Shown here: piece after piece, positions 1,847 to 13,601 of the stretch | Layout of the letters: the number at the start of each line of letters is the position of its first letter | Position numbering within the stretch: position 1 is the first letter of the stretch | Source: Armatimonadota bacterium | Lineage (GTDB): Bacteria; Armatimonadota; UBA5829; JAUSEB01 | Length of the DNA stretch: 38,632 nt | Assembly: GCA_030649165.1 (NCBI GenBank) | Contig: JAUSGG010000115.1 | Coordinates: 1-38,632, forward strand | Direction of reading: 5' to 3' | Made by a program: the position numbers and the translations under genes | Notes under the pieces: generated by a model | Told to the model about the DNA's origin: nothing | The model's database searches: none | Seen by the model: the letters and a program-made list of their open reading frames with translations, nothing else

Positions 1847-1867
1847 CTGGTAATATTACCAGTTTTT
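1847..1867 (+). terminator. hicBA terminator
   Basis: A perfect 16-nt palindrome CTGGTAATATTACCAG (1847-1862) is followed by TTTTT (1863-1867), placed 16 nt after the hicA stop. Confidence 0.75.
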
Positions 1868-1877
1868 CCCGAACCTC

Positions 1878-1906
1878 TTGACAAGCAACCGGGGGGGGGG
1901 TATACA
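1878..1906 (+). promoter_or_regulatory. Promoter with a G10 spacer tract, upstream of the PEP-CTERM gene
   Basis: Consensus -35 TTGACA (1878-1883) and -10 TATACA (1901-1906) are exactly 17 bp apart. Bases 1891-1900 of the spacer are ten consecutive Gs. A homopolymer there can gain or lose bases during replication, which would shift the spacing to 16 or 18 bp and change promoter strength, the known architecture of phase-variable promoters. The start codon served is at 2016, about 100 nt further on. Confidence 0.6.
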
Positions 1907-2015
1907 CTTCACCTGGGCCCGCGCATTACTGGGGCTGCTTTGGCAGTGTAAGGCAATGTAGCGGGCTTTTCCTACATTTCAGGCTCCGTGAGAGGAGCCA
2001 GAGAAGAGAAAAGGG

Positions 2016-3263
2016 ATGAAGACGAAGCCGATCGCGTTTTGGCTGCAGGTCGCCCTGCTGTCCAGTGTAATGCTGAGAGGCACGGTTGCCGTGGCTCAGT
2101 CCCCATGGCCTATGTGGGGAGGCGACCGGTTCCACACGCGCTCTACAACGATAGTCGGCCCCTCCCAGCCTACTTTCAAGTGGAAGGCTTACGTTGGCGG
2201 AGCTGTGAGAGAGTGCTCCATCGGCGCTGATGGGAACATATACGCGCCAAACTCCTCCGGGGCGCTGACGGCGGTTTCGCCCGGCGGAGGGATATTGTGG
2301 CAAAGGGCCGGGGCGGGGGGGTTAAGCGGCTACGCGACTGCGGCAGTTGGTCCCGATGGGAACCTTTACAGCGCCAACGGTAACTACGCTGCAGCGTCCT
2401 ACAGCCCGAACGGCGAGTTGCGCTGGAGCTCGTACAACCAAGAATTGGCGAGGGCGCCCACCATTGCCGCAGACGGGAGCATCTGGACTTCGAGACTCAA
2501 GTTGAGCGCGAATGGTGATGCGATCGGCCCGTCATACTCAGAGTCTCGTACGCCCGTTTCTGAGGCGCGTGCCGGAGGTGTGTATGCGGGTGATATCTAC
2601 ACAACAACAGCAACCCCCGGCAGTCTCGGAGCTGGCGTCCTTAAAACGCAACGATTACAGCTTAACGCGCAAGGCCAGTGGTACTGGGCCACCGCGTGGA
2701 GTTTTGAAGCGTCGATGGGGCCGTCCCACTTCGGGACTCCGGCGGTAGCCGAGAACGGCAACGTGATCGTCGCGTGGAGCAGGGACGCTGTACCCCTAGA
2801 TGGCAAGATACGTGCTTTCAGCCCCGCAGGAGCCTCGCTTTGGACTGTTGGTGTTGGCGCGTACCCCGAATTGGCGATTGGCTCTGACGGAACTATCTAC
2901 GCGCACGGCGGACAGCAACTGTGGGCGATAAACCCTGACGGCTCGATTCGTTGGACCACCGATCTTGGCGTCGGGGCTAATGCTCCGTTGGTCGTCGACG
3001 GGGCTGGAACCGTGTACGTTCGTACGAGCAGCGGCCTCATCGCAGTCGCTTCGAATGGTGCCGTTTCGTGGAACATCTCTGTTGGACAAAACGGCTCACC
3101 GTCTGGGACTCCGTTGTTTGGAGCGGATGGGACTATGTACGTGGGCTCAGTGGACGGCTTCCTTTATGCCTATGCTCCAGTTCCAGAGCCCGCTTCGGCG
3201 CTTGGGCTGGCTGCCGGTCTGTTTGCTCTCGTTCCCAGCTTAAGGCGACGAGGACAACGCTAA
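2016..3263 (+). CDS. PQQ-like beta-propeller protein with PEP-CTERM sorting signal
   Basis: A 415-residue exported protein. Residues 1-28 form a signal peptide ending near AVAQ. The body has repeated beta-propeller blades with the PQQ-enzyme-like motif G-DGxxY (IGADGNIYAP, VGPDGNLYSA, IGSDGTIYAH, GADGTMYVGS) and Trp-rich strands. The tail from about residue 389 is a PEP-CTERM signal: VPEP, a hydrophobic segment (ASALGLAAGLFALVPSL) and a basic end (RRRGQR). Such tails are cut and processed by exosortases, giving a surface or matrix protein; no exosortase is in this window. No catalytic residues of PQQ dehydrogenases were recognised, so a binding or structural role is likelier. Its promoter spacer holds a G10 tract. 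The 5S-derived fragment begins 15 nt after its stop. Confidence 0.85.
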   Translation: MKTKPIAFWLQVALLSSVMLRGTVAVAQSPWPMWGGDRFHTRSTTIVGPSQPTFKWKAYVGGAVRECSIGADGNIYAPNSSGALTAVSPGGGILWQRAGAGGLSGYATAAVGPDGNLYSANGNYAAASYSPNGELRWSSYNQELARAPTIAADGSIWTSRLKLSANGDAIGPSYSESRTPVSEARAGGVYAGDIYTTTATPGSLGAGVLKTQRLQLNAQGQWYWATAWSFEASMGPSHFGTPAVAENGNVIVAWSRDAVPLDGKIRAFSPAGASLWTVGVGAYPELAIGSDGTIYAHGGQQLWAINPDGSIRWTTDLGVGANAPLVVDGAGTVYVRTSSGLIAVASNGAVSWNISVGQNGSPSGTPLFGADGTMYVGSVDGFLYAYAPVPEPASALGLAAGLFALVPSLRRRGQR

Positions 3264-3277
3264 CTCTGTCGCAACGA

Positions 3278-3326
3278 CCGACGATACTTCATGGGCAACT
3301 GTGCGGGAAAATAGGTTGTTGCCAGG
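3278..3326 (+). repeat. Partial copy of the 5S rRNA 3' end
   Basis: These 49 nt match 5S positions 1246-1294 at 47 sites; the first 39 nt are identical and two C-to-T changes follow. Similarity starts abruptly, 15 nt after the PEP-CTERM gene stop. The 5' half of 5S is absent, so this is not a functional rRNA. The copy is followed by the same kind of terminator hairpin as the real 5S gene, so the duplicated unit extends past the gene end. Confidence 0.92.
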
Positions 3327-3333
3327 TCATTTA

Positions 3334-3353
3334 TGCCCGCCGCGAGGCGGGCA
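3334..3353 (+). terminator. Copy of the 5S terminator hairpin
   Basis: 8-bp stem TGCCCGCC/GGCGGGCA with loop GCGA; it differs from the hairpin at 1306-1325 only in the loop. It is followed by an AT-rich segment and a gtac motif also seen after the first copy. Confidence 0.75.
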
Positions 3354-3359
3354 TTCTTA

Positions 3360-3406: not shown

Positions 3407-3628
3407 ATGAAACTAGATCGGATTACATTCGACCCCAATACACTCGGCGGCAAGGCGGCCATCCGAGGCATACGTATTTCCGTGTCTCTCGTCGTCAATC
3501 TGGCGGCTAACGGCATGACGCGCCAGGAGATACTTGAGGCGTACCCTGACCTGGAAGACGATGATATTACCCAGGCTCTGAAATACGCCGCTTGGACCTC
3601 TGGCGATATGGTCACAGAAGCGGCGTGA
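3407..3628 (+). CDS. DUF433-family antitoxin
   Basis: A 73-residue protein with the DUF433 signature: GGKAAIRGIRISVSLVVNLA (about residues 14-33), then GMTRQEILEAYPDLEDDDITQALKYAA. This is a winged-helix-like domain commonly encoded just before a DUF5615 PIN-like nuclease, and the pair is regarded as a toxin-antitoxin system. The ATG has GGAGG 6 nt upstream and a strong -10 element close by. It is complete and shows no decay. The toxin start follows 8 nt after its stop. Confidence 0.85.
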   Translation: MKLDRITFDPNTLGGKAAIRGIRISVSLVVNLAANGMTRQEILEAYPDLEDDDITQALKYAAWTSGDMVTEAA

Positions 3629-3636
3629 GGGGTAAA

Positions 3637-4014
3637 ATGCGTTTCCTCGCTGACATGGGCATCTCGCCCGTTACGGTTGCTTGGCTATGCAGGGAAGGAC
3701 ATGACGCCACACATCTGAGAGATGAAGGACTTCGGCAACTTCCAGATGACCTGGTTCTTGAGAAGGCCCGCGCTGAGAAGCGCATATTGTTGACCTGTGA
3801 TCTGGATTTTGGGCAGCTTGTAGCCGCCGGCGGACACGACTTGCCAAGTGTCATACTATTTCGTCTCTCTGACATGCGCCCCAGCAACGTGAACGCCAGA
3901 CTCGACATCGCCCTGGCGGAGTTTCGCCAAGATCTGCTGAGTGGGTCGGTCATTGTCATTGGGGAAGCCAGCATAAGGGTGCGTCGGCTACCCATAGGTA
4001 AAGGAATCGAGTAA
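3637..4014 (+). CDS. DUF5615 PIN-like nuclease toxin
   Basis: A 125-residue protein. The start MRFLADMGIS is the family's first acidic motif (Asp6 in FLAD); EKRILLTCDLDFGQL holds the second acidic cluster of the PIN-like fold. The family is the toxin partner of DUF433 proteins and probably cleaves RNA; this has not been shown for this protein. The ATG at 3637 is preferred to an in-frame codon at 3592 because the domain begins there and because it follows the DUF433 stop. The stop is followed by a degenerate copy of the 5S terminator hairpin. Confidence 0.83.
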   Translation: MRFLADMGISPVTVAWLCREGHDATHLRDEGLRQLPDDLVLEKARAEKRILLTCDLDFGQLVAAGGHDLPSVILFRLSDMRPSNVNARLDIALAEFRQDLLSGSVIVIGEASIRVRRLPIGKGIE

Positions 4015-13504: not shown

Positions 13505-13601
13505 TGGCGGGAGTGTGTGAGAATCGAACTCACCCGACGCGCTATTAACACGTCACACAGGTTTTGAAGACCAGGAGAGCCACCAGGCCCCATCCACTCC
13601 C
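13505..13601 (-). tRNA. selC: Selenocysteine tRNA (anticodon UCA)
   Basis: A 97-nt RNA with encoded CCA. Diagnostic tRNA-Sec features: an extended acceptor (7 clear pairs GGGAGTG/CACTCCC plus an eighth G-A opposition), a 6-bp D-stem with a 4-nt loop (GGGGCC TGGT GGCTCT), anticodon loop CTTCAAA with UCA at 13565-13567, a long variable arm (GACGTG, 7-nt loop, CGCGTC), and a 5-bp T-stem GTGAG/CTCAC with TTCGATT loop. One U-U mismatch lies in the anticodon stem. It implies that the genome decodes UGA as selenocysteine; selA, selB and selD are not in the window. Its 3' end is the source of fragments R2, R3 and R4. Confidence 0.93.

Follow-up and report, generated by a model that had tools for sequence, protein, structure and literature searches.

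Most known cases of phase variation by repeat tracts come from host-adapted pathogens. Armatimonadota is a mostly uncultured phylum. CRP/FNR-type activators act at class I and class II promoters. PEP-CTERM genes are regulated elsewhere by PrsK/PrsR with sigma-54. Among known systems, the closest to the locus described here is the Neisseria meningitidis porA promoter, whose expression is graded by a poly-G tract lying between the -35 and -10 boxes (PMC3639595). A tract of G11 gives high expression, G10 gives about half on the surface, and G9 gives low expression (PMC3639595). We found no paper on phase variation in Armatimonadota or Fimbriimonas among open-licence papers.

Promoter and gene at the window locus

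The window is the whole stretch of DNA that was analysed, 38,632 nucleotides, and it is a complete contig of an Armatimonadota genome assembly (5.48 Mb in 266 contigs). It contained the following features.

1847 to 1862, plus strand: palindrome CTGGTAATATTACCAG, a probable operator or activator site predicted from the counts of GGTAATATTACC and GGTAnnnnTACC against the control
1878 to 1883, plus strand: -35 box TTGACA, at a distance from the palindrome that matches 17 other sites (17- to 18-bp class)
1891 to 1900, plus strand: G10 tract within the spacer (1884 to 1900)
1901 to 1906, plus strand: candidate -10 box TATACA, spacer of 17 bp, without T at position 6
1903 to 1908, plus strand: alternative -10 box TACACT, spacer of 19 bp, of the form TAnnnT
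1909 to 2015, plus strand: presumed structured 5' leader (fold z-score of -2.4), counted from an inferred transcription start
2016 to 3263, plus strand: gene for an exported PQQ-type beta-propeller PEP-CTERM protein of 415 aa, from sequence and domain matches
3180 to 3251, plus strand: PEP-CTERM domain
3333 to 3354, plus strand: terminator-like hairpin 3' of the PEP-CTERM gene

A sequence-only reading had placed TTGACA and TATACA 17 bp apart with ten consecutive Gs in the spacer, and this is what 1878 to 1906 contains. The 17-bp spacer is AGCAACC followed by G10, which is the longest homopolymer of the window. TTGACA-N17-TATACA matched the genome once, at this promoter, and its reversed control did not match. 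The same reading called the promoter a consensus one. That holds for the -35 box, which is perfect; TATACA agrees with TATAAT at four of six positions and lacks the final T. Against the sigma-70-type spacing of 16 to 18 bp, TATACA lies at 17 bp and TACACT at 19 bp. The leader ends in a purine-rich, RBS-like stretch that adjoins the ATG.

The locus is, we think, likely to be a housekeeping-sigma-type promoter of a palindrome-sharing gene set, with a slippage-prone G-tract spacer that switches expression of the PEP-CTERM beta-propeller in the manner of porA. Slipped-strand mispairing would add Gs to the spacer tract or remove them. Each change would bring the -35/-10 spacing closer to 17 bp, the optimum, or further from it. 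The exported PEP-CTERM beta-propeller would then be transcribed more strongly or more weakly, in a heritable and reversible way. Slippage at this locus, its effect on transcription and the ON length are all things that we infer.

The reading had also described the product as an exported PEP-CTERM protein, and the gene bears this out. The genome search gave the PEP-CTERM domain 20.0 bits against a cut-off of 16; a scan of the isolated protein gave 14.8 bits, below that cut-off. The C terminus VPEPASALGLAAGLFALVPSLRRRGQR has the PEP motif, hydrophobic stretch and basic tail of the domain found in the genome search, and the N terminus is signal-peptide-like. The genome encodes two exosortases (PF09721 matches above cut-off). 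A surface or secreted product of this kind is usual for porA-type promoters, though not strictly defining. Homologues in relatives gave partial alignments only, with 25 to 46% identity. A DNA search and protein searches of the genome collection and of 61 genomes for an orthologous tract promoter returned beta-propeller homologues only, none of them an orthologue that carries a tract.

The neighborhood has several features of its own. A HicB-like antitoxin and HicA toxin pair (1389 to 1831) lies directly 5' of the promoter. The last 50 nt of a 5S rRNA gene with a terminator hairpin (1246 to 1327) are repeated 2 kb downstream at 3278 to 3355 (96% and 91%), and between the two copies lie the hicBA-like pair together with the PEP-CTERM gene. 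The repeat may be a scar of insertion or recombination at the end of the rRNA operon. Directly past it is a DUF433 and DUF5615 pair (3407 to 4014), probably another toxin-antitoxin module. A predicted tRNA-Sec gene with anticodon TCA lies on the minus strand at 13505 to 13601.

A palindrome shared with other promoters

TTGACA starts 15 bp 3' of the palindrome. The genome has nine sites of GGTAATATTACC and none of the reversed control. GGTAnnnnTACC is followed by TTGAC within 30 bp at 33 genome sites, versus 4 for the reversed control. The gaps between the two are quantised: 2 bp (8 sites), 17 to 18 bp (18 sites, including the window), 28 to 29 bp (4 sites) and others (3 sites). Because a palindrome of this type precedes TTGAC 33 times at quantised distances, the window promoter, with its TTGACA and G10 spacer, is probably real.

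A CRP/FNR-type regulon has palindromes at activator distances, and the distances of 2, 17 to 18 and 28 to 29 bp are of this kind. Judged by position, the palindrome centres would lie at about -44, -60 and -71 from the assumed start, which is the geometry of a CRP-type activator. An excess of palindrome plus TTGAC over the control was found in other genomes of the class (30 versus 3 in G020 and 17 versus 2 in G012) and was absent in some.

Genes 3' of the palindrome promoters include several for PEP-CTERM proteins and others for secreted or multihaem proteins. Two other readings of the palindrome were rejected. It is not a mark of PEP-CTERM genes only, as it was present at 7 of the 30 PEP-CTERM loci checked and at many other secreted-protein genes. 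Nor is 1847 to 1862 mainly a hicA terminator, since copies of the palindrome stand 5' of TTGAC at set distances, some of them lacking a T run. The best explanation is that the window promoter belongs to a palindrome-sharing gene set that appears enriched in secreted products.

The palindrome-bearing sister promoters of the genome also bear on the choice of -10 box. Their -10 boxes are mostly TAnnnT and nearly always have T at position 6. The sole TAnnnT at the window promoter is TACACT, 2 bp past TATACA. By this comparison TATACA is a poor candidate -10 box, and TACACT is at least its equal. If TACACT is the -10 box, with a spacer of 19 bp, then G8 would restore 17 bp. The assembled G10 may therefore be a weak state, with G8 as the strong state. 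The ON length is uncertain: it would be G10 with TATACA and G8 with TACACT. Under either choice, tract length sets the -35/-10 spacing. A porA-type promoter carries a mononucleotide tract of at least about 8 between its boxes, and G10 is such a tract in a spacer of 17 or 19 bp.

Long G tracts in the genome

The assembly contained eight distinct tracts of at least nine Gs. Two of the eight have TTGACA on one side and a TA-rich box on the other, and both are 3' of a same-type palindrome. For two of eight to fall within 14 bp after TTGACA, P is about 1.5e-4 if placement is random. A G10 run alone is within chance, with an order-1 estimate of 0.06 expected per window. It is the position of the tract after TTGACA that is beyond chance, not the G10 run itself.

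The second G-tract promoter is on contig C218. It reads TTGACA-ATTTTGTTT-G9-TACATAAT and has the same-type palindrome CTGGTAGTAATACCAG upstream. It is followed by an RBS-like stretch, a short signal-peptide-like start (MKLGWGLRYALAVIS), a stop and a transposase-like remnant. The locus looks like a second secreted-protein gene of this kind that has been interrupted.

Two further loci of this genome, L003 on contig C54 and L010 on C169, share ATCTTAACGCCTATG, which is followed by C11 in the first and G14 in the second. The G14 is at a contig end, and the pair is possibly an assembly break.

The length of the window tract could also be an assembly or sequencing artefact, a poly-G miscall with a different true spacer. 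The assembly is a metagenome assembly, and some other long G tracts lie at contig ends (C169 and C190). The window tract is instead 1.9 kb inside its contig and links a gene and its TA-rich box to a -35 box that is in register with the regulon. Equivalent promoters occur in other genomes, some on multi-megabase contigs. We regard an artefact as very improbable.

Tract promoters across the phylum

A survey covered 291 Armatimonadota genomes, with the reversed pattern as the control. TTGACA-N0-14-G8 was found at 56 plus-strand sites versus 13 for the reversed pattern, each site counted once. It was present in 65 genomes versus 25 for the reversed pattern (totals summed by hand). C8 followed TTGACA at 39 sites versus 6 in the control. 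The enrichment over the control was fourfold for runs of at least eight Gs and sixfold for runs of at least eight Cs. C8 is enriched like G8, and the strand of the tract therefore seems not to matter; an effect specific to the G strand was rejected. TTGACA-N0-14-G8 was absent from all 27 further genomes of the class, and lowering the tract to G7 within the class gave little gain above the control.

Across the 91 G-tract sites retrieved, TAnnnT stood 13 to 23 bp past the -35 box 62 times (9 expected from downstream offsets), with a mode of 17 bp and a broad spread. Where the box was no more than 5 nt from the tract, spacers ran from 12 to 23 bp. By the TAnnnT criterion 55 of the 91 were promoter-like. 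The remainder included coding sequence and chance matches. An ORF start was near 47 of the 55. Of these ORFs, 33 were signal-peptide-like, versus 24 of 119 in the background by the same crude rule. Many promoter-like sites had an ATG 10 to 15 nt past the tract, which suggests that the transcripts of many tract-promoter genes may be leaderless. The layout recurs 5' of genes for secreted proteins throughout the phylum, and for this reason it probably acts as an expression switch based on tract length.

Individual loci of the survey varied. L039 (genome G080) has G8 in a 17-bp promoter spacer directly 5' of a tRNA-like sequence, which is odd for a slippage-prone tract. A C-tract promoter family, TTGACAGCAAG-C8-9-n-TATAAT with close variants (L159 to L166 and L172), is shared by several genomes within a single Armatimonadota family, and its downstream stretch is partly conserved. 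A genome of the same order (L229, G008) contains multicopy TTGACTAGACCCTTGGT-G7-9 sequences without a clear -10 box.

The G tract might instead set promoter strength through DNA or RNA structure, such as a G-quadruplex or a stiff G-rich spacer, and not through its length. The G10 run is on the non-template strand, and the leader contains more G runs. A lone G10 run does not make a classical quadruplex motif, same-strand C tracts are enriched too, and tract length varies while the -35 and TAnnnT boxes stay. A structural role of this sort seems highly unlikely to us.

Tract length in related promoters

We compared pairs of promoters with near-identical ungapped flanks. Tract length differed in 13 of 19 pairs (lengths 8 to 12). 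The 19 pairs group into some seven clusters, and an assembly error could account for a difference of a single base, less easily for one of two or three. In near-identical promoter copies, tract length was the main difference.

Compared flanks were identical for G11 and G12 in one genome (L072 and L073), for G11 and G10 in two species of one genus (L108 and L111), and for C9 and C12 (L167 and L171). One genome has G10, G8 and G11 at L105, L107 and L108. Apparent orthologues (L110 and L112) have G9 and G8. A repeated element, TTGACACTATTTA-C8-12 (L167 to L171), was found in different Armatimonadota families with nearly identical flanks and a variable tract.

These comparisons bear on a further explanation, in which the promoter is real and palindrome-regulated but its G tract is an incidental, stable spacer without a role in switching. 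The composition estimate permits some chance G10 runs, a single tract allele is known at the window locus, and in some G-tract promoters of the phylum the spacer is an ordinary 17 bp and the gene is likely constitutive, as at L039. The variable length of copies with identical flanks argues against an incidental spacer, as do the excess of long G and C tracts 3' of TTGACA relative to the reversed control and the two of eight long genomic tracts in such spacers. We consider an incidental spacer rather unlikely.

A length-switched promoter stays the preferred reading. The sequence-only reading had proposed a phase-variable promoter of an exported PEP-CTERM gene. This is the best-supported reading and has backing across the phylum, while its assumption that G10 and 17 bp are the optimum is uncertain. 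For Armatimonadota as a whole, we find the case evenly balanced that G- or C-tract spacer length is a general switch of secreted genes, with many transcripts probably leaderless, and stacked at the window on a palindrome regulon. If true, a single promoter would come under both stochastic and regulated control. Recurring spacer-tract promoters in this phylum would make bet-hedging of surface and secreted proteins directly testable in environmental bacteria. The test could be read from existing metagenome reads.

Comparison with known systems

The window promoter resembles that of porA in having a mononucleotide G tract of about 9 to 11 between the -35 and -10 boxes of a surface-protein gene, with box spacing set by tract length. 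It differs in its host, which belongs to an uncultured and presumably free-living phylum, and in the extra palindromic regulon site upstream. Its product is exosortase-sorted and is not a porin.

Phase variation in Helicobacter and Campylobacter likewise links hypermutable G/C homopolymers to variable gene expression (PMC2823697, PMC8355987). Many of their tracts appear to act inside reading frames, whereas the window tract lies in a promoter spacer.

The palindrome, TGGTA-N4-TACCA, has the pentamer-N4-pentamer form of CRP/FNR-type sites. Its estimated centres (near -44, -60 and -71) are also similar, and the upstream ones are about one helical turn apart. Its half-site is not that of the well-known consensus sites.

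Like other PEP-CTERM/exosortase systems, the locus has a C-terminal PEP-CTERM signal and the genome has exosortases. Its promoter arrangement appears to differ from the PrsK/PrsR and sigma-54 type of regulation.
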